Part shown: positions 13,046-53,522 of the stretch, piece by piece | Layout: each line of letters starts with the position of its first letter | How positions within the stretch are numbered: the stretch's first letter is position 1 | NCBI GenBank assembly: GCA_024398615.1 | Contig: JAKSIU010000016.1 | Coordinates: forward strand, 1 to 59,094 | Direction: 5' to 3' | DNA: 59,094 bases | DNA from: Bacteroidaceae bacterium | Lineage (GTDB): Bacteria; Bacteroidota; Bacteroidia; Bacteroidales; Bacteroidaceae | Program-made: the position numbers and the translations under genes | Notes under the pieces: generated by a model | Databases searched by the model: none | What the model was told of the DNA's origin: nothing | What the model saw: only the letters and a program-made list of their open reading frames with translations

Positions 13046-13053
13046 CAAAATTA
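13046..13053 (-). promoter_or_regulatory. -7 box (TAATTTTG) for the M16 protease gene
   Basis: The minus strand carries a perfect TAnnTTTG match 30 bp upstream of the protease ATG, in the 209-bp divergent region shared with the GH3 gene. Confidence 0.55.
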
Positions 13054-13225
13054 CTGTCTTTATAGAATGAGAGCAACGCTGAATTGAAAATAAATTCATA
13101 TTTGTTCTCCATTTGAAAATGAGTTTGTTGACAAAAGGTGTACATATCGTATTTTTTGACTATCTTGCACCGTTTTTTGAAAACTTTTGCAGATAGCATC
13201 CAAATCATCAACCAATAAACTTAAT

Positions 13226-15877
13226 ATGAGAAAGATTTCAGGCATCATTGCCATTACCGCAGCCATTCTGGTATCATGCGGTTCTGGAAAGTATGAGTAT
13301 CCTTTCCAGAATCCTAAACTCAAGACCGAAAAGCGTGTGGAGAACCTCATGTCGCTCCTTACACCGGAAGAGAAGGTCGGTCTGATAATGAACAAGTCCG
13401 TGTCAGTTGACCGTCTTGGAATTCCGTCATACAACTGGTGGAGCGAGGCATGTCACGGTGTCCGTCAGGGCGGATACACAGTGTTCCCACAGCCCATCGG
13501 TATGGGTGCTTCGTTCAACGATCAGCTTGTGTATGATGTGTTCAGCGCAGTATCCGATGAGGCACGTGCCAACTGGAACCGTTCAGATCATGACATCTTC
13601 GAAGTAGCCATGGGAGCCAATTACGTCCCAGGTAATCCGGAACTTACCTTCTGGTGCCCGAATGTCAACATCTTCCGTGACCCGCGCTGGGGCCGTGGCC
13701 AGGAGGCTTACGGTGAAGACCCGTACCACATGAGCGTGATGGGTGTTGCCAACGTCAAGGGTATGCAGGGCAATGACAAGAAGTACTACAAGACTCATGC
13801 CTGCGCCAAGCATTATGCAGTGCATTCAGGTCCTGAAGCACAGCGTTACCGTTATGATGCAAAGGTTTCAATGCGTGACCTTTGGGAAACCTATCTGCCT
13901 GCATTCAAGGCTCTGGTAGAAGAAGGCGATGTCCGTGAGGTCATGTGCGCATACAACCGTTACGAAGGTGATCCTTGCTGCGCAAGTGACCGTCTGCTTA
14001 CAAATATCCTCCGTGAGAAATGGGGTTATGAGGCAATCATCCTGACAGACTGCGATGCCATCAACAATTTCTATAACAAGAACCAGCACGGTACACATCC
14101 CGATGCAGTCAGCGCAAGTGTTGACGCTGTCCTTTCAGGCACGGATCTGGAATGCGGCAAGTCATTCATGAGCCTGGTGGGCGGTCTTGAGGACGGTAAG
14201 ATCAGTGAGGCTGACATTGACGTTGCTCTCCGTCGTGTACTGACCGGACGTTTCGAACTGGGTATGTTCGATCCTGCCGAGATGATTCCTTGGGCTAACC
14301 TTGGTGAGGATGTCATCAGCAGCGAAGCCAATGACGAGCTTGCCGTTGAAGCTGCACGCCAGTCAATGGTCCTGCTTAAGAATGACGGTGTCCTGCCTCT
14401 TGACAAGAATATCAAGAAGCTTGCTGTAGTCGGTCCGAATGCCAACGATAAGGGCATGATGAACGGTGAATACGGCGGCAGTCCTACTGACGAGCACTCA
14501 CGTTCACTGCTGGACGGCATCAGAAAGTTCTTCCCGAACACAGAAATCATATATGACAGAGCATGTGAAATCCGCAATGAATATTTCACGACCCAGTATG
14601 CACAGGATATGAATGGCGGTCAGGGCTTCAAGGCCGAATTCTGGAACAACACAGAGTTCAGCGGTGCTCCTGCCGTTACCGGTAACTACAAGGAAGTGAA
14701 TTTCTCGACTTTCGGTGCTTACAATTTCGCTGACGGTGTTGAGAAGGATAACATTTCAGTACGTCTGACAGGTAAGCTGACAGCTCCCTTCACAGGCGAT
14801 ATGAACTATAATATCAGTGGTGACAACGGTTTCAAGCTGTATGTCAACGGTAAGCTGGTTGAAGAGGCCAAGGCATCACAGGGTGGCCGTGGCGGATTCG
14901 GCGGATTCGGCGGCTTTGGCGGATTCGGCGGTTTCGGTGGTCGTGGCCAGCAGCCTCAGCTCAAGTCATTCCCGGTCAAGGAAGGTCAGTCTTATGACAT
15001 TAAGATCGAATACACTCACGCAACCGGTCAGTTCGCACGTCTGTCTGCACAGATCTGCCGTCAGGGAATTGCCGAATTCACAGATCTCGCAAACAAGCTG
15101 GTTGAACAGAATGTTGATGCAATCATCGTGATTGGCGGTATCACTCCTTCTATGGAGGGTGAAGGCGGCGATAAGCCCGACATTGAAATACCTGCAGTCC
15201 AGCAGCGTCTTGTCAGAGCAATGCATGCTACAGGCAAGCCGGTAATCTTTGTTGACTGCGCAGGCTCATGCATGGGATTCGGCAGCATCGAAGATCAGTT
15301 CGACGCTCTTATTCAGGCCTGGTATCCGGGTCAGGGTGGTGCTCAGGCACTTGCTGAAATCCTGAACGGTGACTGTAATCCGTCAGCCAAGCTTCCTGTC
15401 ACTTTCTACAAGTCAACAGACCAGCTGCCTGATTTCCTGGATTACTCAATGGAAGGCCGTACATACCGTTATTTCCATGGCGAGCCTCTGTATCCGTTCG
15501 GATATGGCCTCAGCTACACTTCGTATGAGTACGGTGAGGCAACTCTGTCAAAGGCCAGCATGAAGAAGAACGGCAAGGTCACCATCACTATTCCGGTTAC
15601 CAACACCGGCAGCGTGGATGGAACTGAAATCGTTCAGGTCTATGTCAAGAGCCTTGACAATCCGGCAGCTCCCATCAAGGGCCTGCAGGGCTTCAAGCGT
15701 GTGACTCTTAAGGCCGGCGAGACCGGTAAGGCAGTCATAGAACTGACAGGAAAGAACTTCCAGTATTATGATGAGTCTATTGACGAAGTATCGACATTCG
15801 CAGGCAAGTATCAGCTTCTGTACGGTTCATCATCGGACGACAAGGATCTGAAGGCACTTGACTTTGAGGTTCTCTGA
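13226..15877 (+). CDS. GH3 glycosidase (beta-xylosidase/glucosidase type) with PA14 domain carrying an FG-repeat insert
   Basis: Start chosen at ATG 13226, giving the lipoprotein signal MRKISGIIAITAAILVSCGS; an in-frame TTG at 13187 would put a polar extension before it. The product is 883 aa. The GH3 N-domain shows YNWWSEACHGV, the substrate-loop KHYAVHSGPE and the nucleophile segment ILTDCDAI (Asp about 275). The second domain begins at SMVLLKNDGVLPLD, and a PA14 carbohydrate-binding domain (FKAEFWNN...LTAPFTGDMNYNISGDNGFKLYVNG) is inserted in it. A fibronectin III-like domain closes the protein. Within the PA14 domain, a run of five GGF units flanked by arginines and ending RGQQPQ (14881-14960) fills a loop between two strands. 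The likely substrate is a xylo-, gluco- or arabino-oligosaccharide. Confidence 0.88.
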   Translation: MRKISGIIAITAAILVSCGSGKYEYPFQNPKLKTEKRVENLMSLLTPEEKVGLIMNKSVSVDRLGIPSYNWWSEACHGVRQGGYTVFPQPIGMGASFNDQLVYDVFSAVSDEARANWNRSDHDIFEVAMGANYVPGNPELTFWCPNVNIFRDPRWGRGQEAYGEDPYHMSVMGVANVKGMQGNDKKYYKTHACAKHYAVHSGPEAQRYRYDAKVSMRDLWETYLPAFKALVEEGDVREVMCAYNRYEGDPCCASDRLLTNILREKWGYEAIILTDCDAINNFYNKNQHGTHPDAVSASVDAVLSGTDLECGKSFMSLVGGLEDGKISEADIDVALRRVLTGRFELGMFDPAEMIPWANLGEDVISSEANDELAVEAARQSMVLLKNDGVLPLDKNIKKLAVVGPNANDKGMMNGEYGGSPTDEHSRSLLDGIRKFFPNTEIIYDRACEIRNEYFTTQYAQDMNGGQGFKAEFWNNTEFSGAPAVTGNYKEVNFSTFGAYNFADGVEKDNISVRLTGKLTAPFTGDMNYNISGDNGFKLYVNGKLVEEAKASQGGRGGFGGFGGFGGFGGFGGRGQQPQLKSFPVKEGQSYDIKIEYTHATGQFARLSAQICRQGIAEFTDLANKLVEQNVDAIIVIGGITPSMEGEGGDKPDIEIPAVQQRLVRAMHATGKPVIFVDCAGSCMGFGSIEDQFDALIQAWYPGQGGAQALAEILNGDCNPSAKLPVTFYKSTDQLPDFLDYSMEGRTYRYFHGEPLYPFGYGLSYTSYEYGEATLSKASMKKNGKVTITIPVTNTGSVDGTEIVQVYVKSLDNPAAPIKGLQGFKRVTLKAGETGKAVIELTGKNFQYYDESIDEVSTFAGKYQLLYGSSSDDKDLKALDFEVL

Positions 15878-35246: not shown

Positions 35247-35272
35247 TGGCATAAATGGTATGACAATTGTGG

Positions 35273-35307
35273 AAAGCGCTGAAAATTATTTGATTTTCAG
35301 CGCTTTT
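35273..35307 (+). terminator. Intrinsic terminator after pepD
   Basis: AAAGCGCTGAAAAT at 35273-35286 pairs with ATTTTCAGCGCTTT at 35293-35306 around a 6-nt loop, followed by T. Confidence 0.85.
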
Positions 35308-35356
35308 GTCGTTAAAATGTTGTAAAATTGCGAATCGTCAAAACAACTATTCACAT

Positions 35357-38300
35357 ATGGTCAGAACAAAGAAAAATCTGATGTGGGGAGTTGCCGCAGT
35401 GCTGCTTCTTCCTGCTGCTGTAGCAACGGCAGTCGTTGCCGGTGCCGATTCAGAACCGAACATGAGACCTTTGGGTCCGTGTGATGTCTATGCCGAAGGC
35501 GGAACGCCATGCGTGGCCGCACATTCTACTACCAGAGCCCTATTGAGGGACTATGACGGACCTCTGTATCAGGTGATGCGCCAGTCCGATGGCAAGACAC
35601 TTGATATAGGTGTGGTTCCTGCCAACGCCAATGACGGTGGCGGATATGCCGATGCAGCAGCTCAGGACGAATTCTGCAAGAATACATACTGCTGGATCAC
35701 AGTTCTGTATGACCAGTCCGGTAAGGGCAACCATCTTGTGCAGGCTCCACGCGGAGGATTCGGCGGTCCGGCTATGGGCGGTTTCAATAACGTGCCCCTG
35801 GCTGATTGGGCCCCTGTAACCTTGAATGGCCATAAGGTCTATGGACTGTTCATCGCTCCCGGTATGGGCTTGCGCTGGAATGATGCCCATGGTACTGCCG
35901 TTGACGATCAGGCCGAAGGCCAGTACTGGGTAATCAGCGGCCATCACTACAATACCGGATGCTGCTTTGACTATGGCAATGCCGAAACCGACAGCCGCGA
36001 TGACGGTGACGGCACAATGGAAACCACATATTTCGGCAATCAGCCTTCTTGGTATCGTGGTCAGGCCCCAGGTCCGTGGATCATGACTGATCAGGAGAAC
36101 AACCTTGTGGGTTGTGTCAATCCCGATCCCAATGACAAGTACTGTGCTGACATACCAAGCGTAAATTACCGCTTTGTCACTGCAACTGCCGACGGTGAAC
36201 CTCACCACTGGCGTTCCATGGGCGGTGATGCCCAGAGAGGTGATCTGCAGATAATGTATGACGGCCAGCGTATCCAGAATCCGCGCAGCAGCTACGATCC
36301 CATGCGTAAGCAGGGAGCCATCCTGCTGGGTAACGGCGGTGACAACTCCAACGGTTCATCGGGCACATTCTACGAAGCAGCCATGACGGCCGCAGGTACA
36401 TTCCCGACAGTTGAAACCAATCAGGCACTTCAGGCCAATATCGTTGCTGCCGGTTATGACATCCATTATCTGTCCATCTCAAGTCCGGATAAGATTGACA
36501 AGCCCAATCTGCTGCAGACCTTTGCACCAAAGTCCACTCAGACTGTAGCTGTCAAGTTCACCAATATCACTGACAGCGAAATCAGAGACCTGACCATTGC
36601 GGTGGAAGCTCCACGCGGTTGGAAGGTATCGGTTCTAGGCTCTAAGGACAAGGTCAGGAAAGTCAACTATGCCGTGGCTCCCGGACAGAGTGTGGTGGCT
36701 CAGTTCAGTGTCAGGTCGTCAAAGAAGGAATTCAATGGCGATATGCGTGGAAAGGCAGTGTGGACCGGTGCAGACGGACAGCAGGAGCAGTTCGCAGTCC
36801 AGAAGGTCCGCAACGTGAAGCCGGTTACAATCAACGAATTCAGTCTGGCCGATGGTCAGGGCAATCAGACCAACCAGTTCATCGAACTCTACAACGCCGG
36901 TGACAGGACGGCCGACATTTCGGGCTGGACACTCACACATCATGCAATAAATATGCCCTATTTTTCATCTGTCGAGATTCCTTCAGGTACAAAGCTGGCT
37001 CCAAAGTCATACTATCTTTTGGGTCTTGCAACATCCGGTCTGGCAGTACAGGCCGAAAAGGGTGAAAGCACAATCTGGCTTCGCTCGGTTGAAGGATTGA
37101 ATGAAGGCGATGAGATAACTGTCGGATCAGAGAAAGTGCGTATCAAGTCAATAATCAGACCTGAAGCTGCAGCTCAGAACGGACGCGGCGGCTTTGGCGC
37201 ACAGGTGGCATCGACCACTATCTGGCAGCCGCTGCCCGAAGGACCTGTCATCACTGTTCCGGCAGGTTCCAATAATATCCCTGTCACATCAGTCAACGGG
37301 TTCAAGGTGGGACAGAAGATCGCCATCGGTTATGGTGCTACCTATCCTGCAGTATCCAACTCACTTGAGAAATACGAGATAGTTACCGTTACTGAAGTTG
37401 GCAAGCCCGGAACCCAGGCATATCTGGCAATGGATGCCAAACCTGGAGATACCAACATCAAGATGTCTTCTACACAGAACATCAGCGTAGGTGACCGTAT
37501 CCGTCTTGACATTGACAGTGAAGGTCATGGAATTGAATGGGTTACCGTAAAGAATGTTGGTACCCAGTCGCAGCGCAATACCTTTAACGGTCCGCTGCGT
37601 CCCGATGAGAATCCCGGAACTGGAATCGATCTGGAAGAACCGCTCAAGTTCGCCCATTCCAGCAATATGCCTTACAGCGTCTGGGGTACAGGCATCACAT
37701 TTGAACCTGCAACAAAGTTTGACCACAGCAGTAACGAACCCGTTCTGCCGCTTGCATATGGAATTGAACTTGACAGACCGCTTGCCAAGAGCCATCCTAT
37801 CAACGAGGCTGTAGTCGATGCCAGCGTTACGAATGTCGGTTATCAGGGTGAAACCGCTGCCGATCTCCTGTTCGGCGGCCCGGCTCTGACCGCATCGGGC
37901 AATATGACACTACGTACAGACAAGGGCCTGATAGCCGATGCCCTCAACTGGGGTGGAGTCATTGATCCGTGGCTTTCTGAAGGATATCACGGCGATGCAG
38001 GAGCCAATGCTTCCGGCAACCATGCCGCTGTTCCTCAGGCTGGTCGTGGTGGTCGTGGCGGTTTCGGCGCACAGCCCCAGCAGCCGGCAGCACAGCCGTG
38101 GGTAAGCTCCGGCCGTTATCCTGATGGTGCCGATTCCGATGATAACCGTGCAGATTTCCATGTCCAGACATCATCGACAATAGCCGGTGCCGCAGCAAAG
38201 GGCAGCGTCAACTTCAAGGTGACCGATACTGATTTCTTCAGGTTAGGTCAGACCGTCTGGATTGGCAGCGGTGCAAATAAGGAACAGGTTAAGGTGGCAG

Positions 38301-38689
38301 TAGTTGGTACACCGGGATATACACGTCTTTCAGAAGCCGTTCAGGCCGGTGAGAACGTTATCAAGGTGGCATCGGCCCAGGGATTCAACGCAGGCCAGAT
38401 ACTGGAACTGGAATCGGCAGCAGGCAAGGAGAAAGTCACAGTTGCTGAAGTCAAGATCGTTCAGAGGCGCGGATTCGGTTTCGGCGGCTTTGGCGGTCGC
38501 GGACAACAGCAGGGGCCTCAGCCAAGCGATGAAATTACGCTGGCACAGCCGTTGGCCAATTCGTATTCGGCAGGCGATGAACTTGCCGGATCGGGTATCA
38601 CATTGGGCGCTCCTCTTATGAATGATCATGCCGCAGGTGAACCTGTGGCCTATAGCATTCCGACTCCAGGTGCTCCGAACAGGTATTAA
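35357..38689 (+). CDS. GH54 alpha-L-arabinofuranosidase (AbfB-like) with NEW3, lamin-tail and repeated beta modules
   Basis: Start at ATG 35357 (1110 aa); an in-frame TTG at 35306 lies before the signal peptide (LMWGVAAVLLLPAAVATAVVAG). Residues 40-370 match the fungal AbfB catalytic domain: GPCDVYAEGGTPCVAAHSTT, FCKNTYCWITVLYDQSGKGNHL, GCCFDYGN, WIMTDQENNL and GNGGDNSNGSSGTFYE. Cys42/52, 107/112 and 202/203 match the three disulfides of the fungal enzyme, including the vicinal pair. Glu247 (nucleophile) and Asp329 (acid/base) are present. Instead of the fungal arabinose-binding domain there is a NEW3-like domain (about 380-490), a lamin-tail domain (about 490-600) and repeated beta modules. 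Three Gly/Arg/Phe/Gln-rich inserts break the C-terminal half. First gene of a three-gene operon. Confidence 0.9.
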   Translation: MVRTKKNLMWGVAAVLLLPAAVATAVVAGADSEPNMRPLGPCDVYAEGGTPCVAAHSTTRALLRDYDGPLYQVMRQSDGKTLDIGVVPANANDGGGYADAAAQDEFCKNTYCWITVLYDQSGKGNHLVQAPRGGFGGPAMGGFNNVPLADWAPVTLNGHKVYGLFIAPGMGLRWNDAHGTAVDDQAEGQYWVISGHHYNTGCCFDYGNAETDSRDDGDGTMETTYFGNQPSWYRGQAPGPWIMTDQENNLVGCVNPDPNDKYCADIPSVNYRFVTATADGEPHHWRSMGGDAQRGDLQIMYDGQRIQNPRSSYDPMRKQGAILLGNGGDNSNGSSGTFYEAAMTAAGTFPTVETNQALQANIVAAGYDIHYLSISSPDKIDKPNLLQTFAPKSTQTVAVKFTNITDSEIRDLTIAVEAPRGWKVSVLGSKDKVRKVNYAVAPGQSVVAQFSVRSSKKEFNGDMRGKAVWTGADGQQEQFAVQKVRNVKPVTINEFSLADGQGNQTNQFIELYNAGDRTADISGWTLTHHAINMPYFSSVEIPSGTKLAPKSYYLLGLATSGLAVQAEKGESTIWLRSVEGLNEGDEITVGSEKVRIKSIIRPEAAAQNGRGGFGAQVASTTIWQPLPEGPVITVPAGSNNIPVTSVNGFKVGQKIAIGYGATYPAVSNSLEKYEIVTVTEVGKPGTQAYLAMDAKPGDTNIKMSSTQNISVGDRIRLDIDSEGHGIEWVTVKNVGTQSQRNTFNGPLRPDENPGTGIDLEEPLKFAHSSNMPYSVWGTGITFEPATKFDHSSNEPVLPLAYGIELDRPLAKSHPINEAVVDASVTNVGYQGETAADLLFGGPALTASGNMTLRTDKGLIADALNWGGVIDPWLSEGYHGDAGANASGNHAAVPQAGRGGRGGFGAQPQQPAAQPWVSSGRYPDGADSDDNRADFHVQTSSTIAGAAAKGSVNFKVTDTDFFRLGQTVWIGSGANKEQVKVAVVGTPGYTRLSEAVQAGENVIKVASAQGFNAGQILELESAAGKEKVTVAEVKIVQRRGFGFGGFGGRGQQQGPQPSDEITLAQPLANSYSAGDELAGSGITLGAPLMNDHAAGEPVAYSIPTPGAPNRY
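37178..37206 (+). repeat. FG/RGG-type low-complexity insert 1 in GH54
   Basis: Encodes NGRGGFGAQ, placed between a V-x-I-x-S strand and the following W-Q-P-L strand of a repeated beta module. Confidence 0.7.
38039..38098 (+). repeat. FG/RGG-type low-complexity insert 2 in GH54
   Basis: Encodes a Gly/Arg run (AGRGGRGGFG) followed by a Gln/Pro/Ala tail, in the second lamin-tail-like domain just before SSGRYPDGADSDDN. Confidence 0.7.
38465..38521 (+). repeat. FG/RGG-type low-complexity insert 3 in GH54
   Basis: Encodes RRGFGFGGFGGRGQQQGPQ, placed between the V-A-E-V-K-I-V strand and the E-I-T-L-A-Q-P-L strand of a repeated beta module, the same loop as insert 1. Confidence 0.7.
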
Positions 38690-39788
38690 GCGATTGCTGG
38701 TGCCGCTGGTCCTGGCGGCACTGGCACTCTGTGTCTGGATGATGGTGCATGCCCTGTCAGGCATGTCCATGCCGGGCTGTGGAACCGGCAGCGGCTGTGA
38801 CAGCGTCATGTCAGGCCGATGGGCTTACATAGCCGGACTCGTGCCGGTCAGTGCGTTGGCCGTGGGTGCCTATCTTGCACTGCTGCTCTGCCTGTTCTCA
38901 TTCAAGTCCGATGCCCGTACCGCCAGTCGCATAATGCTCGTGCTTGGCGGTGCAATAATTGGCATGGCGCTTTGGTTCACTGCAATCCAGGCATTTGTGC
39001 TTCATACCTTCTGCAAGTACTGCATGACTGCCCATGCATTGGGTACAGTCATAGCGGTTCTGATAATCTGCTCGTGTACAGGCCACCGCTGGCAGTGGCT
39101 GGCTGCCGGAATTGGACTCGCGGCACTGACAGCGGCCGTACAGTATGACACTCTGCCCGATGCTGCATATGCTGAAGGAGCCGCACAGGAACCTCTGCCT
39201 CTGTTTTCAGCGGATCAGGTTCCGACAGTCGGTTCAAAGGATGCTCCCGTTCAGGTGGAGCTTATGTTTGACTACCGGTGTTCCCATTGCCGGAGTCTGC
39301 ATGCCATGCTGCCTCAGCTTGTAGATATGTTCCAGAGTAGGGTGGCGTTCCTGCTTCTGCCGACTCCCTTGAGCAATGCATGCAACTACTACATACCGCA
39401 GGGACCGGATCCCTTCGAGGGCTCATGTACCCTGACCCGTCTGGCACTTGCCGTCTGGCAGGCCGCACCTGACCGCTTCCCGGAATATGACGGGTGGCTG
39501 TTTCAGGAAGGTCCTGACGGCTGGTATCCCAGGACGGAGTCCGATGCTGTAATCATGGCGCAGCAGATTGTTGCCGATGATGACGCGTTCGAATCGGCTT
39601 ACAGCAATATGTGGACCATGGATTATCTGACCAAGGTGTTTGAACTATTCGGACGTACCACGAACGGCAGGAGCGGCGGGATACCGCGATTTGTCTATGG
39701 CCAGAAATGGCTGGTTCCTGATGCCGATACGCCGGAGGCCGTCTATGAACTGTTGGAGAAACTAATCAACCGTAATGATGAAGAATAA
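38622..39788 (+). CDS. Fused VKOR - DsbA-like disulfide-forming membrane protein
   Basis: The 388-aa protein (from ATG 38622, overlapping the GH54 gene by 68 bp; GTG 38673 or TTG 38694 are later alternatives) starts with a vitamin K epoxide reductase domain of about four or five membrane helices. The loop pair GCGTGSGCDSVMSG (Cys53, Cys59) and the active-site CKYC (131-134) are present. After a linker comes a soluble periplasmic thioredoxin-fold domain with the DsbA motif FDYRCSHCRSLH (Cys220-Cys223) and a cis-Pro-type GGIPRFVYG near the end. Together this is a self-contained system: quinone-linked VKOR reoxidises DsbA, which inserts disulfides in exported proteins. It lies between two disulfide-rich GH54 enzymes, overlapping both. 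Confidence 0.9.
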   Translation: MIMPQVNLWPIAFRLQVLRTGIKRLLVPLVLAALALCVWMMVHALSGMSMPGCGTGSGCDSVMSGRWAYIAGLVPVSALAVGAYLALLLCLFSFKSDARTASRIMLVLGGAIIGMALWFTAIQAFVLHTFCKYCMTAHALGTVIAVLIICSCTGHRWQWLAAGIGLAALTAAVQYDTLPDAAYAEGAAQEPLPLFSADQVPTVGSKDAPVQVELMFDYRCSHCRSLHAMLPQLVDMFQSRVAFLLLPTPLSNACNYYIPQGPDPFEGSCTLTRLALAVWQAAPDRFPEYDGWLFQEGPDGWYPRTESDAVIMAQQIVADDDAFESAYSNMWTMDYLTKVFELFGRTTNGRSGGIPRFVYGQKWLVPDADTPEAVYELLEKLINRNDEE

Positions 39789-42474
39789 ACTGATGATTGC
39801 CGCTACGGCTGCAGTGCTGGTTCTGCCGGCCATCCTGTCTGTCTGTTGTCAGGGAGGAAGTAAACAGGGACCGTGTGATATCTATGACCGTGAGGGAACG
39901 CCATGCGTTGCCGCACACAGTACTACACGCCGTCTGTATTCCAGATATGACGGCCCGCTGTATCAGATTCAGAGAGAGTCTGACGGAGAGAAACTTGATA
40001 TAACCCAGACCTCTGACGGTTATGCCGATGTGAACCTGCAGAGGGGCTTCTGTTCCGGCACCACATGCTTCATAACGGTCATATATGACCAGTCCGGTCG
40101 CGGGAATGACCTTAAGCAGGCTGCACCCGGTACTTTCAAGGGACCGGCCAAAGGTGAATTCAACACAATGGCCATTGCCGACATGGCTCCGGTTCTTGTG
40201 AACGGTCACGAAGCCTACGGCCTGTACATCATGCCGGGCATGGGATACCGCAACAACAACGCCTCGTATCTTGCCATCGATGATGAACCTGAGGGCATCT
40301 ACTATGTGATTGACGGCACCCATTTTGACAGCGGATGCTGTTTTGACTACGGCAATTCATCGACCAACGGCAAGGCTGTCGGCCGTGGAACCATGGAGAC
40401 CACATATTACGGAACGGCAACGGCCTGGGGCAGCGGTAACGGCGAAGGACCATGGATCATGGCCGATATGGAAGCCGGACTCTTCTCGGGCTTCAGCGCA
40501 AAGAAAAATGATGTCCCTTCCATTACGGACTGGCGTTTCGTGAGCGTGTTTGTGAACGGAGGCGGCGGCAACCGCTGGGATCTGCGTGGAGGCGATGCCA
40601 CAACCGATTCCCTGACCACGTTCTACAGTGGCGAACGTCCCCATGTTGAAGGAAATGACAACTATTACCCGATGCACCGCAAGGGAGCCATTCTGCTTGG
40701 CAACGGCGGTGACAACGGCAACGGCAGCGCCGGCACTTTCTATGAAGGTGTAATGACACAGGGCTATCCAACTGACAATGCCATTGCACTGGTGCAGAAG
40801 AATATAGCTGCACAGAAGTACAGGGCCTATCCGCTCACTCTGTCGCATGTACGCTCATTTGCACCGGGGAGCGGACAGACTGTAACGGCCACTTTCACCA
40901 ACGTGACAGACAGCCCCATGGACAGCGTCGGATTCACGGCCATGATTCCATCGGACTGGCTTGTGGAATATCCTGATGCCACAAGCGGAAGTCGTCTTGA
41001 ACCCGGTGAGAGCATGACCTGGCGTTTCACTCTGATTTCGCCTGACAACAGTGGCGGCACCTTCTCGAATGCCGATAACCTGCAGGTCCTGGCAAAGACC
41101 TCAAACGGGAGCTATGAAGTAACGGCAAAACTGCGTTCGGCAAGCCCCGTCAAGATCAATGAGCTCAGACTGGCCGGTGCGCCACAGAGGCAGAATGACC
41201 AGTTCATTGAACTGTATAACCCCACTGAAACAGCCATAGACCTGTCCGGCTGGAAACTGCGCGTGCAGCGCAGCGGGTGGGCTCCTGTCGATGTCCTGAC
41301 ATTGCCTGCCGGAACGGAGATTGCCGCAAACGGATTCCTGCTTGTGGGAACAGCCGGCAATTATGCTGCTCTTGGAGCCGGTGCCGGTTCGACTGCCATA
41401 TATCTTGGACAGGATGCAGCCTCGGTCCAGGTCCTCAGAATAGGAGGTTCAGACTACACTGTGTCCAAGGTCGGAACGCCAGCCGGACAGCTTACTACCG
41501 TGTTCATTCCGGTATCGACAGGACCATGGCTTGAGATTCCGGCCGGAAGTACAAATGTTCCGGTCACTTCAAATTCCGGCTTCAAGGCCGGTCAGCTTAT
41601 GGGAATAGGTCTTGGAGACCGCTTCGAATCTGTAACGGTAACTCAAGTCGGTACGGCTGCAACCCAGACGGTCCTTGCCGCAGCGGTTGCTGTCGGTGAC
41701 ACTCGTATAGAGCTTGAATCCAATGACCGTCTCCAGCCGGGCGACGAGATTACAATAGGTACCGGCCAGCGTAAGGAACTGGCAGTCGTGAAGAGCATAG
41801 AGAGAGTGGCATCGGCCCCTCAGGGACGTCGCGCACCAGGTGCCCAGCCGCGTGAGACCGGTATAGTTGAACTTAAAAAGCCATTGGCACAGGCTCAGAT
41901 GTCAGGTGTTGACGTGTCATGCCCCGGAACGGGAATCAGCTTCACTCCAGCACTTCGGTATGCTCACGAAAGCGGTGATGCCGTTCAGTCCCTGGGCCTG
42001 CCTTATGAACTTGACCGTCCGCTTGAAAAGGCCGTGGAAATGCTCGATGCCGTATGTGACGGCAGTCAGGGATTCTCCCAGGAGGCTGATGCCTGGATAG
42101 GTTACGCTCTATCCGTCCAGGCCGGAATGGTGGCTCTCTATACACCGACCGGGGTCTTGGCCGATGCCATAGTCTATGGTTCGCAACAGAGCAGTTCAAG
42201 TGCCAACGGCACCATTGCCCAGCCGCAGATTGCAGTTCTTGAGGGCGATCAGGATGGTGGCGGATGCATTGCTGTGGTACCTCGTCCGCAGAACCAGGGA
42301 TTCGGCGGATTCGGAGGGTTCGGCGGAAGACAACGGTTCTCTGCTACTCCAGCCGCTGGAAATACGGCGGGACGCAGTCTGGTCCGTATTCCTGATGGAA
42401 CTGACAGCGACAATCTCTGTGTGGATTTCCGTGCATCGGACAATCCTACACCGGGAGAAGCCAATAAAGAGTAA
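39775..42474 (+). CDS. Second GH54 alpha-L-arabinofuranosidase, lipoprotein, with NEW3/lamin-tail modules
   Basis: The 899-aa product starts within the end of the VKOR gene (14-bp overlap; ATG 39778 is equally possible). Its signal is of the lipoprotein type (LPAILSVC, lipid Cys24), unlike its paralogue. The GH54 domain (residues about 32-350) again keeps Cys34/44, Cys93/98, the vicinal Cys188-Cys189 in GCCFDYGN, Glu233 in WIMADMEAGLFSG, and Asp313 in NGGDNGNGSAGTFYEG. A NEW3-like domain, a lamin-tail domain (KINELRLAGAPQRQNDQFIELYN), repeated beta modules and a second lamin-tail end (SLVRIPDGTDSDNLCVDF) follow. A GGFGGFGG insert lies before that end. The pair looks like an old duplication: domain order is the same but sequences have diverged. 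Confidence 0.9.
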   Translation: MMKNKLMIAATAAVLVLPAILSVCCQGGSKQGPCDIYDREGTPCVAAHSTTRRLYSRYDGPLYQIQRESDGEKLDITQTSDGYADVNLQRGFCSGTTCFITVIYDQSGRGNDLKQAAPGTFKGPAKGEFNTMAIADMAPVLVNGHEAYGLYIMPGMGYRNNNASYLAIDDEPEGIYYVIDGTHFDSGCCFDYGNSSTNGKAVGRGTMETTYYGTATAWGSGNGEGPWIMADMEAGLFSGFSAKKNDVPSITDWRFVSVFVNGGGGNRWDLRGGDATTDSLTTFYSGERPHVEGNDNYYPMHRKGAILLGNGGDNGNGSAGTFYEGVMTQGYPTDNAIALVQKNIAAQKYRAYPLTLSHVRSFAPGSGQTVTATFTNVTDSPMDSVGFTAMIPSDWLVEYPDATSGSRLEPGESMTWRFTLISPDNSGGTFSNADNLQVLAKTSNGSYEVTAKLRSASPVKINELRLAGAPQRQNDQFIELYNPTETAIDLSGWKLRVQRSGWAPVDVLTLPAGTEIAANGFLLVGTAGNYAALGAGAGSTAIYLGQDAASVQVLRIGGSDYTVSKVGTPAGQLTTVFIPVSTGPWLEIPAGSTNVPVTSNSGFKAGQLMGIGLGDRFESVTVTQVGTAATQTVLAAAVAVGDTRIELESNDRLQPGDEITIGTGQRKELAVVKSIERVASAPQGRRAPGAQPRETGIVELKKPLAQAQMSGVDVSCPGTGISFTPALRYAHESGDAVQSLGLPYELDRPLEKAVEMLDAVCDGSQGFSQEADAWIGYALSVQAGMVALYTPTGVLADAIVYGSQQSSSSANGTIAQPQIAVLEGDQDGGGCIAVVPRPQNQGFGGFGGFGGRQRFSATPAAGNTAGRSLVRIPDGTDSDNLCVDFRASDNPTPGEANKE
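42290..42337 (+). repeat. FG-type low-complexity insert in the second GH54 protein
   Basis: Encodes QNQGFGGFGGFGGRQR. Codon choice varies between repeats (GGA TTC, GGG TTC), so it is not a fresh slippage product. Confidence 0.7.
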
Positions 42475-42526: not shown

Positions 42527-44530
42527 ATGAAGAAAATTCTTTCACTGACTGCGGCGCTTCTGACCGTGTGTTCGTTTGCATCGGCCCAGATTCAGGATCT
42601 GGCCAGCCCCGACGGCAAACTGGTGGTGTCTTTCAAACTGACTGACACCGAGACTCCAACCTATTCAGTCAAGTATGACGGCAAGGACATGCTCATGGAT
42701 TCTCCAATAGGCATCATGCTGGACATGGGCTCGAAACCTACCCTTCAGGGACTTCCCCAGGGACGTGAGGCCGGAAACGGTGACTTCACCAAGAATCTTA
42801 CCCTGGTGAGCGTGAAGGATAACGAGGCCGTTGCCGATTATTCACTTGACCGCATCAAGGTCGCACATGTGAACCACAAGTATGTCCAGCGTGTAATCAC
42901 CCTGCAGAACGCTTCAAGACAGAACATCGAGTTCGAATTCCGCGTAAGCGACAACGACATTGCCTTCCGTTATAACATTCCGGTAGGCCAGCAGCGCAAG
43001 AGCACACGCGTGCTGTTTGAGAACTCTGGTTTCACTTTCCCTGACGGGACCACGACATTCCTGACAGACCAGAGCGATGCCATGATAGGCTGGCAGCGTT
43101 CAAAACCCAGTTATGAAGAGGGTTACACCAATGACGGCCCAATGTCGAAGAAGTCAGGTTACGGCCACGGATACACATTCCCGGGCCTGTTCCATGTCGG
43201 TGAAAACGGCTGGGTCCTTCTCTGCGAGACCGGAGTCAGCAGCCGCTACTGCGGAAGCCGCCTCAGTGACTGCGTGAACAATACCTATAAGATAGAATTC
43301 CCAATGCCCGATGAGAACAACGGTAACGGTACCGTATGCCCGGCCGTCCGTCTTCCGGGTTCAACCCCATGGCGTACCATTACCGTGGGCTCGACACTTG
43401 CACCAATCGTAGAGACTACAGTCATGTGGGATTACGTGGAACCGGTTTATGAGACCACACACAAGTACAAGTACGGACGCGGCACCTGGAGCTGGATCGT
43501 ATGGCAGGATGCATCGTGCAACTGGGATGACCAGATCAAGTTCATCGACCTTGCAAGCGCCATGAATTTCGAATATATCCTGATTGATGCCGGTTGGGAC
43601 CAGAACATAGGCTATGACCGCATGGAACAGCTCATCAAGTATGCGAACTCGAAGAATGTCGATGTGTTCCTCTGGTACTCATCAAGCGGAAACTGGAATG
43701 ACATCACCCAGAGCCCGATCAACAGGATGGACAACTCGGTAGTTCGCAAGAAGGAGATGGCTTGGCTTGAGAAGGTCAACTGCAAGGGTATCAAGGTTGA
43801 CTTCTGGGGCGGTGACAAGCAGGAGACCATGCAGCTTTATGAAGAGGTTCTTTCCGATGCCGATGACCACGGCCTGATGTGCATCTTCCACGGTTGCACC
43901 ATGCCTCGTGGCTGGGAGCGCATGTATCCCAACTATGTGGGTTCAGAGGCAGTCCTTGCCAGTGAGAACATGTACTTCGGTCAGGGCGCCTGCAACGAGG
44001 AGGCCTTCAAGGCAACCCTGCATCCGTTCATCCGCAACACCATGGGCTGCATGGAGTTCGGAGGCTGTTTCATGAACCGCATCCTGAACAAGCAGAACAG
44101 TGGCCGCGGCTCAAAGCTCATGACCGGTCCTATCTTCCAGATTGCTACCGAAGTGGTGTTCCAGAACCCGATTCAGAACATTGCCATCTGTCCCAACAAC
44201 CTTGAGGATGCTCCGGAAATCTGCATGGACTGGCTCAAGACTTCACCTACACAGTGGGAGGAGACCAGATTCATTGACGGCTATCCCGGCAAGTATGTCA
44301 TCCTGGCACGTAAGGACGTTACTGGCAAGTGGCACGTAGCCGGTCTGAACGCTACTAAGGAGCCCATTAAGGAAAAGATTGCATTGCCGTTCTTTGAGGA
44401 TGGGACAGTTCAGGTCTATTCTGACGATGCATCGTTCGAGAACCCGACCCTCAGCAGTGTCAAGTACAAGGGAAAGAAGGGCTATCAGATTGAGATCGCA
44501 CCTAACGGCGGCGTAATTATCGAACAGTAA
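42527..44530 (+). CDS. GH97 glycoside hydrolase, probably retaining alpha-galactosidase type
   Basis: The 667-aa secreted enzyme (signal ending ASAQ) has the three GH97 parts: an N-terminal beta-sandwich (LASPDGKLVVSFKLTD), a catalytic TIM barrel (RGTWSWIVWQDASCNWDDQIKFIDLASAMNFEYILIDAGW) and a short C-terminal sandwich. GH97 contains inverting alpha-glucosidases such as SusB and retaining alpha-galactosidases. The segment CKGIKVDFWGGDKQETMQLYE places Asp425 where the retaining members have their nucleophile, so alpha-galactosidase-like activity is more likely. This would suit removal of galactose side chains from plant polysaccharides. The next feature is an unusually long terminator. Confidence 0.9.
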   Translation: MKKILSLTAALLTVCSFASAQIQDLASPDGKLVVSFKLTDTETPTYSVKYDGKDMLMDSPIGIMLDMGSKPTLQGLPQGREAGNGDFTKNLTLVSVKDNEAVADYSLDRIKVAHVNHKYVQRVITLQNASRQNIEFEFRVSDNDIAFRYNIPVGQQRKSTRVLFENSGFTFPDGTTTFLTDQSDAMIGWQRSKPSYEEGYTNDGPMSKKSGYGHGYTFPGLFHVGENGWVLLCETGVSSRYCGSRLSDCVNNTYKIEFPMPDENNGNGTVCPAVRLPGSTPWRTITVGSTLAPIVETTVMWDYVEPVYETTHKYKYGRGTWSWIVWQDASCNWDDQIKFIDLASAMNFEYILIDAGWDQNIGYDRMEQLIKYANSKNVDVFLWYSSSGNWNDITQSPINRMDNSVVRKKEMAWLEKVNCKGIKVDFWGGDKQETMQLYEEVLSDADDHGLMCIFHGCTMPRGWERMYPNYVGSEAVLASENMYFGQGACNEEAFKATLHPFIRNTMGCMEFGGCFMNRILNKQNSGRGSKLMTGPIFQIATEVVFQNPIQNIAICPNNLEDAPEICMDWLKTSPTQWEETRFIDGYPGKYVILARKDVTGKWHVAGLNATKEPIKEKIALPFFEDGTVQVYSDDASFENPTLSSVKYKGKKGYQIEIAPNGGVIIEQ

Positions 44531-47124: not shown

Positions 47125-48080
47125 AAACTGCTATTTTCACCATTAGCCTCTCCAGCACCGTAATTAAGATCTTTCGGACCCGCCCTGTAGCGGTAGCAGC
47201 CAGCGGCTCAGGACATCAACCTCAACCATCGTCCGGAAGTGGGGTAGCATCATCAACCATTACAGCCGTCAGGACCGCCGCTGTCTGGATTGTTTAACCC
47301 GTGTCAGCCGTGCCGACTGCGGTATTCCACTGCGCGTGCCGGGCAGAGGCTTTCCGCTCTGTCCGTCGCGCGAATCGGAGTGCATAGCCGCAATCACGCT
47401 CCAATCCTCTGACCGTCATCGCTCCGTTCCACACCCCAGCCGCCCCGCCTGCCACTTCCCGGAGAACCGGCACCGACACCAGGACCGGCATCGCCATAAC
47501 CATATATACAGCGGTGTTCCGTACCGTTACCGCCAGCCGGAAGACCCCGTCCGTCCCTGACGGTCCTTGTATGGTGTCCTCCGTCCGTCGGCAACCGTCC
47601 TCCACGCTTCTTTTAGTTGACGGCTGACGCCGCCAACTCCGGCTACCGGTTTCTATTACCAGTATCGGTATCAGTCCGCTATGTAACATAATGGAAAGCT
47701 TAGTTATGCTCTCCGTTCGTCGCGCGCTCCTCTCTGCAAGCATAACTCCCATTATATTAAATAGCTCCATCACTGCTTTCTGCACCGTTCCAAAAATTAC
47801 CGTCGCACGCTGCTTTCCTGCCGTGAACTGACGTTCCCGTCAGGCGCACCCACAGGTGCTGGGTCGGCACTGCCGCACAGAACCGTCCGCGTCCGCATAG
47901 CGTCCTGCTCCCGGTACTGCGCTCTGTGCGCTCCAAGGTAGTAGGGACGGGTGTGTGGCTGCCATAGTCATCCACACACCCGTCCCTCCCTTTTCCGACT
48001 CCGTTTCCGTCACTGCGCCAGGCAATCACGCCCTCCGGCGTGACACACCTGTCTCCGTTCCGTCCACTCCGACCCTCCAG

Positions 48081-48213
48081 CACCCGATGTTGCCATCAAC
48101 ACCCGATGTTGTCATCAGCACCCGATGTTGTCATCAGCACCCGATGTTGCCGTCAGCACCAGATGTTGCCGTCAGCACCAGATACTACTATCGGCACCAG
48201 ATAGTCATCGCAG
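48081..48213. repeat. 19-bp tandem repeat, seven units
   Basis: Units of CACCCGATGTTGTCATCAG and variants occur seven times head to tail without spacers. The first five are nearly identical and the last two diverge. The period is not a multiple of three, so it cannot encode a constant peptide repeat. Confidence 0.9.
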
Positions 48214-49946: not shown

Positions 49947-51560
49947 ATGTTGAAACAAATGTACAAATCCGAGTATGCACTTAGGCGTCACTTGGAAGCT
50001 CCGCTACTTCGAGAACGTGAAGAGTATCTATCCCACTTATCTCAGAAGCATCTTAACACACACAGAATGATGATGTACGAAAACTGCATACTGTTCATCA
50101 TCAATTACTTCAATCTCAAAGACAGCGACACATCAAAAATCACGTTGGAAGAACTGGAACGGTGCCGTGCTAAATGGTTGAAATCCAGGCCAAGATCAAA
50201 TGGCTCGGATAAGTCATACCGGATAGCTAGAGCAAAGTTCACACAAATCTCAACATCATGGTTGACATGGATAGGCCGTCTTGATGACCGTTACAACGAT
50301 CCTCAGAACATCTTCAATGTCATCTTTACATGCTCCTTCTTTCGATGCCGCTTCTTCACCGCTCCTATGTACCAAGAAAGAGAATCATACTTGAGTTATC
50401 TGGTATCAACGGGTATGTGCACGGCCGTAGTTCGAGTCAATGCCACGTTCCAACTGCATGTGATAGAATATCTTCGTCTAAACAGACCAAGGAAGGTATC
50501 ATTGGAGGAAATCGAGAAAGCAGCTGCGTCGTGGGATAGGACTTCAAGCAAGTCAACAGGTAAGAAACGAGGAAACAAAGACAGTAAGAATCAGTTCCTT
50601 TGGACAGCAAAGACATGGCTATCGTTCTGCGGATGTTATTCTCCCGCTGAGAATAATCCATCACAATATATCTTCGCTGAGAGCTACCTGAAATGGCTAA
50701 TGGAAGAATGCGGATACTCTACCTACACATACGATATCCGCAAGGTGCATCTAAAATCGTTCTTTGAATACTTGAAACAGCAGTCCGTAAACCTGGACAG
50801 CCTATCGACTTCAGATATTGATGCTTTCATCGAAAGAGAAAAGTCAAGGAACTTGTCAAGAGCTTCAATAGCAGGCCTAATCGCCACCCTCAGAAACTTC
50901 GTTGACTATGCCGCTCAGCAAGGGTGGTGTAAACAAGGACTCAAAGACACGATACTAACAACTAGGACTTATAAGCAGGAAACTCCTCCTGCTTATGTAA
51001 CCTGGGATGTTGTAAAGCAAGTCATTGATACACAAGATCAGGAAACGGCAGTTGGAATACGTAACAGAGCAGCATTATTGCTTATGGCGACCTATGGGCT
51101 GCGAGAATACGAGGTCTTAAATCTTAAGATACGGGACATCGACTGGAGGAACGAGAAATTGCATGTAAAAAGAGCAAAAAGTGGACGTGAGCAATACCTT
51201 CCTCTTGTGCGAGAGGTAGGAGATGCCATTATCAAATATCTGAAGGAGGGTCGATATAATCAGACATTGGACGACCATCTGTTCATCACAACACGCGCAC
51301 CATATAACAAGTTAAACAACAGCGGACTCTACTGGTGCGTGAGTGCTGCTCTAAAGAAAGTTGGAGCAACCCCGCTGAAGTATGGGCCCCACACACTCAG
51401 GCACAGTTGCGCGACTCATCTTGTAAACAGTGGTCACACTCTCAAGGAAGTGGCGGATCTTCTTGGACATCAGGGGCTTGATACTACGAGAGTCTATGCA
51501 AAAGTTAATCTTACCGCTCTTCGTAACGTGGCGGATATGAACTGGGAGGTGGGACTATGA
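49947..51560 (+). CDS. Tyrosine recombinase, first of trio (RitA-like)
   Basis: The 537-aa protein has a long N-terminal part containing two SAM-like DNA-binding regions (an apparent duplication, LEELERCRAKWLKS and LEEIEKAAASWDR), then the catalytic domain with the expected residues: Arg in ATYGLREYEVLNLKIRDIDW, His-x-x-Arg in HTLRHSCATHL, His in LLGHQGLDTT and Tyr in RVYAKVN. The stop overlaps the next start (ATGA), so translation is coupled. The largest of the three, as in RIT elements. Confidence 0.9.
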   Translation: MLKQMYKSEYALRRHLEAPLLREREEYLSHLSQKHLNTHRMMMYENCILFIINYFNLKDSDTSKITLEELERCRAKWLKSRPRSNGSDKSYRIARAKFTQISTSWLTWIGRLDDRYNDPQNIFNVIFTCSFFRCRFFTAPMYQERESYLSYLVSTGMCTAVVRVNATFQLHVIEYLRLNRPRKVSLEEIEKAAASWDRTSSKSTGKKRGNKDSKNQFLWTAKTWLSFCGCYSPAENNPSQYIFAESYLKWLMEECGYSTYTYDIRKVHLKSFFEYLKQQSVNLDSLSTSDIDAFIEREKSRNLSRASIAGLIATLRNFVDYAAQQGWCKQGLKDTILTTRTYKQETPPAYVTWDVVKQVIDTQDQETAVGIRNRAALLLMATYGLREYEVLNLKIRDIDWRNEKLHVKRAKSGREQYLPLVREVGDAIIKYLKEGRYNQTLDDHLFITTRAPYNKLNNSGLYWCVSAALKKVGATPLKYGPHTLRHSCATHLVNSGHTLKEVADLLGHQGLDTTRVYAKVNLTALRNVADMNWEVGL

Positions 51561-52507
51561 AAGTACGTGACATGGTAAGACAATATATTGTCTACAGACG
51601 AGCTATTGGAGATAAGTTCGAGTCTGCAGAAGAGATGTTGAACACGTTCGTGAAGTATGTAGGAGAGGATGCCGATATCCAATCTATAACGTCTGAAGTC
51701 TGCGAGAAATATCTTGTGGGTGATGACCATGGATCAACAAGGCGATGGCTTACACGTCACATGGTGCTGAATGGACTCTTCAAATGGGCGATTGCCCGAG
51801 AAATCTTATCCCATAATCCTTTGCCAAAAGATAAACCCAGAGAGCCGGAACATATGAAGCCATACATCTACTCAAACGATGAGCTCAGGTTGCTGTTCGA
51901 CTGTGCACTCAAATATCAGAGAGGAAGATGTGTTTGCTATCCGGAGAGTATGCAATGCATACTGCGTCTTACTTACATGCTTGGGCTGAGAATACGGGAA
52001 ACGCTGAATATCAAAATATCTGACATAGACATGAAGGAACAGACGATATACATACAATGCTCCAAGTTCTTTAAGTCGAGGATAGTCCCATATAATACTC
52101 AAGTTCAGTCAGTTCTTCAGGAGTATATTACGTGGAGGGGATCCAATGGACAACCAATGCGTCCTGACTCGCTACTGTTCTTGGATAGGTCAGGGAATGC
52201 CCTAAGAGTCAGTGCGATAGAGAATAACTATGCCCGTGTGCGAAAGTTGGCTGGTATCAAAAGAGATGACGACAGTCCATATCAACCCCGAATCCACGAC
52301 CTTCGGCATAGCTTTGCGGTTCATCGACTTACAGCATGGTATGATGATGGGGTTGATGTGCAGAAAATGCTGCCGGTTCTATCCACTTACATGGGCCACT
52401 CACAGTTGGCCCATACGTCTATCTACCTCACGATGACAGACCGTCTGCTGGGTCTTGCCAATAATCGCTTTGAAATCTATGCTATGGGAGGAATGAACCA
52501 TGAATGA
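51557..52507 (+). CDS. Tyrosine recombinase, second of trio (RitB-like)
   Basis: The 316-aa recombinase carries Arg in YMLGLRIRETLNIKISDID, His-x-x-Arg in HDLRHSFAVHRL, His in YMGHSQLAHTS and Tyr in IYLTMTDRLL. Its N-terminus (VRDMVRQYIVYRRAIGDKF) is the core-binding domain. It overlaps RitA by four bases and RitC by eight. Confidence 0.9.
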   Translation: MKVRDMVRQYIVYRRAIGDKFESAEEMLNTFVKYVGEDADIQSITSEVCEKYLVGDDHGSTRRWLTRHMVLNGLFKWAIAREILSHNPLPKDKPREPEHMKPYIYSNDELRLLFDCALKYQRGRCVCYPESMQCILRLTYMLGLRIRETLNIKISDIDMKEQTIYIQCSKFFKSRIVPYNTQVQSVLQEYITWRGSNGQPMRPDSLLFLDRSGNALRVSAIENNYARVRKLAGIKRDDDSPYQPRIHDLRHSFAVHRLTAWYDDGVDVQKMLPVLSTYMGHSQLAHTSIYLTMTDRLLGLANNRFEIYAMGGMNHE

Positions 52508-53522
52508 GAGAACGGACAAAACGGTATATGCCGGTTACTGGCTCAAGCGCTTCCTTGGCGAATACATGGTAACCGTCAAGAACTTGTCTGAAAATACCAG
52601 ACACAGCTATCGAGACACCTTCAGGATGCTATTGTTGCATGTCTCCTCAATAACAAAATGCCCGGCAGATAAAATCAAGTTGTCAGAAGTGACAGCTTCG
52701 TTGGTTGTTGGCTTCCTTGATAGTCTTGAAGAATCAAGAGGGTGTTCTGTACAAACACGTAATCAGCGGCTTGCTGCAATAAAATCCTTCGTCAAGTATG
52801 TATCATTGCACAGTCCAGAGCATCTTGAATGGTGTCGTTCGATACATAACATCCCCAAAAAGAAAACCATCAAAAAGCAAATAACATATCTGGAAAAGCC
52901 GGAAATGGATGCGCTCCTGGCAGCTCCAGACAAGAAAACTGTTCAAGGATGGAGGGACTATGTGCTTCTGCTGTTCCTTTACAATACAGGAGTACGAGCA
53001 GAAGAAGCGGCTTCATTGAAAATCAAAGACATATCAGAGCAGTCCGCTAAATCCGGAGTGTCCATTGTGACAATCGTGGGCAAGGGAAGAAAAACAAGGC
53101 GGTGTCCTCTTTGGAAAAGTACGACAGACGCACTTCAAACCCTATATCGGAATAGAGAGCCAGACTGCCATGTCTTCATAAATAGGTTGGGAATGCCGAT
53201 GACAAGATATGGTGTATATGAGGTTGTTACCAAGTATGCAAAGATGATAGAATCCACCTTCCCCGATGTTGCAAACAAAAGGGTGACCCCACATACAATA
53301 CGACACACAACGGCAACTCATCTTCTTCAATCTGGCGTTGATATCAATACAATACGAGCATGGCTTGGGCATGTGTCGATCAATACGACGAACATATACG
53401 CAGAGGTAAATATGGCCATGAAAATCAAGGCACTCCTCTCTTGTGAAGTTGTCGATGAGTCCAAGAGGAGAAAAAGGTGGAGTGAAGACAAAGGTCTGAT
53501 GGCCTTCTTGGATAATCTATAA
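52500..53522 (+). CDS. Tyrosine recombinase, third of trio (RitC-like)
   Basis: The 340-aa XerC/D-like recombinase has Arg in LYNTGVRAEEAASLKIKDIS, His-x-x-Arg in HTIRHTTATHLL, His in WLGHVSINTT and Tyr in NIYAEVNMAMKIKAL. All catalytic residues are intact, so the trio is likely functional. The ~20 residues after the domain are basic (SKRRKRWSEDKG). Confidence 0.9.
   Translation: MNERTDKTVYAGYWLKRFLGEYMVTVKNLSENTRHSYRDTFRMLLLHVSSITKCPADKIKLSEVTASLVVGFLDSLEESRGCSVQTRNQRLAAIKSFVKYVSLHSPEHLEWCRSIHNIPKKKTIKKQITYLEKPEMDALLAAPDKKTVQGWRDYVLLLFLYNTGVRAEEAASLKIKDISEQSAKSGVSIVTIVGKGRKTRRCPLWKSTTDALQTLYRNREPDCHVFINRLGMPMTRYGVYEVVTKYAKMIESTFPDVANKRVTPHTIRHTTATHLLQSGVDINTIRAWLGHVSINTTNIYAEVNMAMKIKALLSCEVVDESKRRKRWSEDKGLMAFLDNL

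Follow-up and report, generated by a model that had tools for sequence, protein, structure and literature searches.

Organization of the GH54/VKOR-DsbA locus

The window analyzed here is a stretch of 59,094 nucleotides (positions 1 to 59,094 of the forward strand of contig JAKSIU010000016.1, assembly GCA_024398615.1) from a member of Candidatus Colenecus, a genus described as comprising Bacteroidaceae of mammalian guts (PMC8957277); the genome has a size of 2.46 Mb and is 81.7% complete. According to the open reading frame (ORF) calls, three genes on the plus strand encode a first GH54 enzyme (GH54-L), a protein in which a VKOR domain is fused to a DsbA-like domain, and a second GH54 enzyme (GH54-S) (Table 1). 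This is the gene order given by the original prediction, which had been made from the letters of the sequence and had also reported overlaps of 68 and 14 base pairs (bp). The 14-bp overlap stands, as the stop codon of the fusion and the ATG of GH54-S are both present in the DNA, while the 68-bp overlap between GH54-L and the fusion depends on translation starting from the ATG at 38622, to which GTG (−20) and TTG (+4) are possible alternatives. In 7 of 16 related loci, an ATG lies at −1 to +6 relative to the GH54 stop; in the remaining loci the starts are more distant or just GTG/TTG are nearby, one locus being unmeasured.

Table 1. Features of the GH54/VKOR-DsbA operon and its borders in the window.
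Feature	Position	Strand	Basis or remark
Perfect hairpin of 16 bp, 3' end with four T	35272–35307		Separates the operon from the dipeptidase gene
GH54-L, predicted exported alpha-L-arabinofuranosidase, 1110 residues, GH54 catalytic, NEW3 and lamin-tail domains	35357–38689	+	PF09206, LTD, NPCBM_assoc; PDB 1wd3/6sxt
Vicinal Cys-Cys codons, GCCFDYGN of GH54-L	35960–35965	+	Retained by all compared GH54s covering the site
Extra Cys pair of GH54-L, residues 253/263, mark of the clade	36113–36145	+	Sequence comparison
VKOR-DsbA fusion, 388 residues given ATG 38622, start uncertain	38622–39788	+	
VKOR four-helix domain	38700–39065	+	Pfam, structure model
VKOR loop cysteines C53 and C59	38778–38798	+	Invariant, 10-row alignment
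VKOR active site C131-K-Y-C134, His at CXXC+4	39012–39023	+	Both Cys and H138 invariant
DsbA-like thioredoxin-fold domain	39189–39785	+	
DsbA active site C220-S-H-C223	39279–39290	+	C220, H222 and C223 invariant
Second Cys pair of the DsbA domain, C254 and C269	39381–39428	+	Both invariant; probable pairing
GH54-S, predicted arabinofuranosidase, 899 residues, GH54, NEW3 and lamin-tail domains, six canonical Cys	39775–42474	+	PF09206
GH97 glycosidase, next gene downstream	42527–44530	+	PF10566

The VKOR-DsbA fusion

The VKOR half of the fusion matches PF07884 (E 3e-13; 50.5 bits, cut-off 27.5). For the DsbA half, the match of the window protein to Thioredoxin_4 (E 3e-4; 21.5 bits) is below the cut-off of 23.2, and among relatives the scores lie above the cut-off in L185, L298 and L070 and below it in L007, with no match in L293. 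A structure model built from a three-row alignment (mean predicted local distance difference test score, pLDDT, 66) was compared with known structures by VIA-align. It matches the VKOR structures 4nv2 and 3kp9 and human VKOR, the pLDDT of the VKOR part being about 40–70, and its C-terminal half matches ScsC/DsbA-type structures. In this model, the DsbA half adopts a predicted thioredoxin fold with a helical insert and a CXXC motif.

The motifs named originally, VKOR CKYC, a loop cysteine pair and DsbA-like CSHC, were recovered at residues 131–134, 53/59 and 220–223. A 10-row alignment, on which all statements about conserved residues of the fusion are based, further revealed the C254/C269 pair, which is probably structural. 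In all 10 aligned members, a His stands four residues after the VKOR CXXC (residues 135–138; window 39024–39035). The residue at this position is described as important for quinone binding in other VKORs, and is Tyr or Trp in the human and mycobacterial proteins (PMC11208910).

As far as described, the fusion shares the four-helix VKOR, the loop pair, the CXXC and the periplasmic thioredoxin-fold domain with the Synechococcus VKOR (3kp9/4nv2) and clostridial VKOR-DsbA. It differs from known VKOR fusions in its C-terminal domain of DsbA/ScsC type, its extra Cys pair and its tie to GH54. Other Bacteroidales VKORs have the VKOR domain and in some cases a thioredoxin-like end; however, most of them comprise 500–570 residues with a longer N-terminal region, which we take to be C39-peptidase-like.

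A local profile of the fusion separates this subfamily from other VKORs: members reach at least 172 bits, fragments truncated by the end of a contig or locus 81 and 34 bits, and other VKORs found in the order and family searches at most 39.5 bits. The best score after the window was 60 bits in the phylum sample (395 genomes), where fetched matches did not exceed 63 bits on the local profile, and only the window's own copy was found at E 1e-20 in the class sample (267 genomes). No subfamily member beyond GH54-linked loci was detected in the order (393), phylum and class samples, and no fusion is present within the stretches read of 56 GH54 loci, mostly from Actinobacteria (L189–L244). A plasmid home of the fusion received no support, as tblastn against 72,556 plasmid records gave no match.

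Distribution and linkage to GH54

The genus sample comprised 37 genomes of Candidatus Colenecus, many of them incomplete. VKOR was found in 21 and GH54 in 26 of them; both occur in 21, VKOR alone in none, GH54 alone in five and neither in 11 (Fisher p 5e-6, uncorrected for kinship). Among the eight genomes at least 90% complete, five contain VKOR. The fusion is the sole VKOR match in each genome holding one, and a search for DsbB (PF02600) was negative in all 37. GH54 is rare in the wider samples, with 4 of 393 order genomes (one a weak partial match) and 9 of 201 family genomes, all nine within the genus, while VKOR of any kind occurs in 20 order and 26 family genomes, GH54-linked ones included. 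Some VKOR was detected in 12 of 18 genomes picked for holding GH54.

All 21 fusion copies of the genus lie directly behind a GH54 gene, 20 behind GH54-L and one (G596) behind GH54-S. In G534 the upstream gene is the C-terminal part of GH54-L, which reaches the contig end; in G594, residues 1–61 of the fusion follow GH54-L at a contig end and the rest starts another contig; and in G612 the fusion is adjoined by the end piece of a GH54-L whose frame is broken. Of the 12 copies from outside the genus, 10 directly follow GH54 (G178, G074, L178, L185, L291, L292, L294, L295, L296 and L298). They include two genomes of another family from the order sample (G178 and G074) and a Mucilaginibacter metagenome-assembled genome (MAG; L298). 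The 18 GH54-selected genomes contain ten fusion copies, eight of them directly behind GH54; the fusion of L297 starts at a contig edge with its upstream gene out of view. Overall, 31 of 33 copies are found directly behind GH54, or 23 of 23 without the GH54-selected genomes. Adjacency beyond chance, which the original prediction had proposed to check, is thus borne out, and its other concern, that the fusion might be a housekeeping copy in unrelated contexts, was not seen. A housekeeping VKOR was likewise rejected as a candidate, since the fusion is missing in 16 of the 37 genus genomes and has no member in the samples outside GH54-linked genomes.

Viewed from the enzymes, the two GH54s behave differently. 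The fusion is the next gene for 30 of 32 resolvable GH54-L copies of Bacteroidota, the exceptions being G596 and G1010 (L188), a genome without any VKOR match; G592 and G606, which are cut by contig ends, were left out of this count, and G534 was read from its C-terminal part. Six of the 30 pairs were found via VKOR and are therefore not independent evidence in this direction. GH54-S, in contrast, is mostly located away from the fusion, so that an absence of VKOR next to GH54 is usual for GH54-S and not for GH54-L. Outside Bacteroidota, Opitutae and Actinomycetes sequences of the GH54-L clade occur without the fusion. The three-gene order of the window was found in 3 of 31 loci (window, L076 and L185), some loci ending soon past the fusion. 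Of the proposal that the fusion is carried with both flanking enzymes as a module, the part concerning the GH54-L/fusion pair, which occurs at differing loci, is retained, and the part concerning both GH54s together is not.

Besides contig edges, the sole fusion not located next to GH54 is that of L293 (6688–9447 of this locus), where two type-B carboxylesterases (PF00135) are encoded upstream, with SusC/SusD-like genes, named by eye from the sequence, close by. Type-B carboxylesterases have a conserved disulfide. In G596, a gene whose product is 31–32% identical to these carboxylesterases lies directly before GH54-S and the fusion (L074, 4532–6190).

GH54 enzymes and their cysteines

Both GH54 proteins match PF09206 over profile positions 1–314 of 315 (GH54-L, E 4e-118; GH54-S, E 9e-126), with NEW3 and lamin-tail domains following the catalytic domain according to Pfam. 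The catalytic domain of each aligned whole with that of fungal AkAbfB (1wd3, 6sxt; E about 1e-104), and the columns of the catalytic Glu and Asp, presumably E221 and D297 of AkAbfB, are retained. By family, GH54-L and GH54-S are putative arabinofuranosidases. The three Cys pairs of AkAbfB, including the vicinal pair, are present in both proteins (CCCCCC in each), as the original prediction had claimed. Unlike AkAbfB, which we take to carry a CBM42 domain, the window enzymes have the NEW3 and lamin-tail domains instead and gave no Pfam match to CBM42, and GH54-L has a fourth Cys pair. Its catalytic domain contains eight cysteines (residues 42, 52, 107, 112, 202, 203, 253 and 263), of which Cys 253/263 occur in every GH54-L copy covering the region and are absent from AkAbfB and GH54-S. 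A FastTree phylogeny of 128 catalytic domains (midpoint root; identical domains entered once) separates GH54-L with the extra pair from GH54-S without it.

The designation of these enzymes as fungal-type was not upheld. The scan of genome contigs gave at least 572 confirmed GH54 matches, of which 80 were kept, and AkAbfB is found among bacterial sequences in the tree; the label is misleading because GH54 is common in bacteria, as also described in PMC8155123, and because of this grouping. A specially fungal origin of GH54 was rejected, since AkAbfB, the one fungal sequence used, groups with non-Bacteroidota, mostly actinobacterial, GH54s.

In several branches of GH54-S, the second Cys pair or other cysteines are gone (CCLG, CCCG, CASC and SCSC patterns), while GH54-S of the window retains all six. 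This loss does not track physical linkage to the fusion, as linked copies can be reduced (L074 and L076) and unlinked ones intact (L086, L087 and L088). In GH54-L, all eight cysteines are kept in 25 of 25 distinct, fully read copies from VKOR-holding Bacteroidota genomes, while in L188 (G1010), whose genome lacks a VKOR match, both GH54s are without some of the disulfide cysteines. In a post hoc comparison, the L-clade cysteines were intact in 25 of 25 copies with VKOR and broken in two of four without (p 0.015), one of the two broken cases being that of G606, where the gene lies at a contig edge, is truncated and has an in-frame gap. The L188 locus is a GH54-S/GH54-L tandem (7872–14597) in a 5.9-Mb genome, in which single cysteines of pairs have been lost, leaving orphan partners. 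GH54 genes broken by a frameshift, stop or deletion were seen in five loci (L078, L076, L072, L103 and L061, in G612, G610, G611, G413 and G606, respectively); these could reflect decay or assembly error.

Relocation and co-inheritance of the pair

In most of the genus, the GH54/fusion pair has GH43 and a TonB-dependent receptor as neighbors. The window has the dipeptidase and GH97, G610 and G596 have GH115, L008 has a hybrid two-component regulator, and L185 has GH43, a GH51-type protein and GH97; a few flank genes are common to different lineages. In G596, the fusion is absent from the GH54-L locus (L102) and is found about 4 bp behind GH54-S, between GH54-S and GH115 (L074). The corresponding site of G548 (L091) has GH54-S directly beside GH115. 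The fusion has thus changed its place once, unless the relocation is an assembly error of this MAG, which may be the case.

For the co-phylogeny, 26 of the 31 pairs were used, four partial pairs and G596 being omitted. The GH54 and fusion trees have 13 of 23 splits in common, whereas none of 1000 shuffles gave more than 4 (Mantel r 0.92). On the question of a separate transfer, holding the window fusion within its genus gave a p value of 0.06 in the approximately unbiased test (p-AU), with long branches.

Cysteines in exported proteins

Exported proteins were counted with a home-made gene caller and a crude signal-peptide rule in about a sixth of two genomes. Among proteins with 1–10 cysteines, 28 have an even and 43 an odd number in G000 (97 exported proteins predicted from the window and another 400 kb), and 27 and 34, respectively, in the VKOR-less G457 (76 exported proteins; 400 kb). 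An excess of even numbers is described as a mark of general oxidative folding (PMC12453122, PMC5403849); odd counts outnumber even ones here, and therefore there is no sign of genome-wide disulfide formation. The cysteine density of exported proteins did not differ between the two genomes (p 0.34).

Other features of the window

The hairpin upstream of GH54-L is a possible terminator and upstream boundary of the operon. The region 35265–35320 folds with −21.2 kcal/mol (z −5.9; equaled by 0 of 200 shuffles), and a consensus terminator scan did not include the hairpin among its predictions. An Rfam scan of the operon gave no match. Relatives of the downstream GH97 gene also lie close to the pair in L185 (Pfam GH97) and L298 (24–28% identity). 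In the window, TAnnTTTG motifs, presumably Bacteroides promoter motifs, are found at 42472 and 42482; since they directly precede the GH97 gene, this gene may be transcribed separately from a promoter of its own. Further downstream lie a 19-bp unit in 5.6 copies (48078–48202), within about 47.3–49.7 kb of overlapping ORFs on both strands, and three tyrosine recombinase genes that adjoin and partly overlap each other on the same strand (49947–53522), each matching PF00589, which we take to resemble "recombinase in trio" elements.

Discussion

We propose that the VKOR-DsbA fusion is a client-linked, quinone-coupled disulfide oxidase serving GH54, a reading to which we assign a probability of about three in four. 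The data show the genes, their motifs and folds, the linkage, the co-inheritance and one relocation; the direction of electron flow, the client, the quinone and a dependence of GH54 activity on the fusion are inferred. Exported GH54 would reach the periplasm with free Cys thiols, to which the CSHC of the DsbA domain would donate a disulfide. The reduced CSHC would be re-oxidized by the VKOR loop pair C53/C59 and then by C131/C134 of CKYC, which would pass the electrons to a quinone; in an anaerobe this would be menaquinone. A co-operonic fusion would supply the oxidase where and when GH54-L is made, and GH54-L would need it most, because it has eight cysteines with four likely disulfides, including the vicinal pair. 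A human VKOR variant produced in E. coli is described as using menaquinone during anaerobic growth (PMC11208910), and a Clostridium VKOR-DsbA fusion is described as restoring disulfide formation in E. coli without dsbA and dsbB (PMC12453122).

Client-linked oxidases as a kind are already known from the DsbL/DsbI-ASST system, in which the oxidase pair forms a three-gene operon with its client in uropathogenic E. coli (PMC7810732, PMC6067686). In both systems the oxidase is encoded beside an exported enzyme, the need of GH54 for the fusion being our assumption. DsbL and DsbI, however, are two proteins of the DsbA and DsbB families, and their cell contains DsbA/DsbB as well, whereas the window encodes a single VKOR-DsbA fusion with a putative glycosidase client in a genus in which no DsbB was found in 37 genomes. 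The fusion would therefore work like DsbL/DsbI-ASST without being a member of that system, as its partner domain is VKOR. A literature search that covered few subscription journals gave no report of a VKOR-DsbA form with a glycosidase client, of a near-exclusive linkage across lineages, or of such a setting without other DsbB or VKOR.

The combined data suggest that, in some gut and environmental Bacteroidota, a cysteine-rich GH54 brings a folding helper of its own into cells seemingly without one. Taken further, the pair might be a transferable client and oxidase cassette in Bacteroidota without general oxidative folding, with the fusion as a near-obligate companion of GH54-L that is movable to new clients, namely GH54-S in G596 and the carboxylesterases in G1018, and with fusion-less GH54s tending to shed disulfides. 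We advance this extension tentatively, at odds slightly short of even.

Several observations weigh against a dedicated role of the fusion in GH54 folding or limit the force of the linkage. The 21 genus cases share common ancestry and are thus non-independent, 10 of the 12 non-genus genomes were selected for GH54 content, and the fusion of G1018 (L293) lies 6 bp behind two carboxylesterases instead of GH54. Intact cysteines also occur without VKOR: a GH54-L member from Opitutae (L186), whose genome has no VKOR match, and one from an Actinomycetes MAG (L242), for which the locus only was searched, keep all eight, and the canonical cysteines are intact in G592 (a contig-end fragment), G595 and G1014, where no VKOR was found, two of these three being genus genomes of 81–83% completeness. 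Conversely, GH54-S adjoins the fusion in L074 and L076 and is without its second Cys pair. Obligate anaerobes are described as tending to exclude cysteine from exported proteins (PMC12453122); the depletion seen here is mild (1.29 cysteines per 100 residues in exported versus 1.65 in cytosolic proteins of G000, and 1.13 versus 1.60 in G457). Finally, when G596 is included in the co-phylogeny, the Mantel r falls to 0.44, below the best permutation (0.535), although 10 of 24 splits are still common compared with at most 3 in shuffles. A lower r is expected if the partner in G596 belongs to the other GH54 clade.

The carboxylesterases and the SusC/SusD-like cluster (by eye) of G1018, the esterase-like gene in G596 and the GH43, GH97, GH115 and GH51-type neighbors of the pair would fit a fusion with a broader range of clients among the exported enzymes of arabinan/xylan clusters, with GH54 merely its commonest neighbor. 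Given that nearly all copies directly follow GH54 (31/33) and that the exported cysteine density did not differ with and without the fusion, in one genome each, we regard this as unlikely. That the fusion is the general disulfide oxidase of the cell, its operon position being incidental, is very unlikely: although each genus genome with a VKOR match has the fusion as its only one and a DsbB was not detected, 16 of the 37 genus genomes lack the fusion, including three of the eight at least 90% complete, none was seen to carry it without GH54, and exported proteins have an odd number of cysteines more often than an even one.

We give still less credence to a DsbA half whose main task is to isomerize GH54 disulfides, for example the vicinal pair, or to switch their redox state, and not to make them. 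The fused VKOR would hold CSHC oxidized, CSHC shares the His of the DsbA CPHC site, and no separate oligomerization domain was evident, no search having been aimed at one. Inherited hitch-hiking without a functional tie, which would account for the flanks common to most loci within the genus, is scarcely credible. The pair also occurs with differing flanks in another family, in other Bacteroidales MAGs and in the Mucilaginibacter MAG, the fusion of G596 left the GH54-L locus and joined another GH54, and an ATG lies near the GH54 stop in seven of the 16 related loci. A disulfide oxidase dedicated to GH54 thus remains our preferred reading.

If so, the GH54/fusion operon would offer a direct answer to the question of how disulfide-dependent enzymes enter anaerobes that are averse to cysteine. 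With client and oxidase in one transcription unit, it would provide a clean pair for the study of oxidase specificity, and the fusion may aid the production of GH54 and similar enzymes in bacteria. More generally, a VKOR-DsbA gene in a polysaccharide-degrading locus may be a sign of disulfide-dependent enzymes encoded there.

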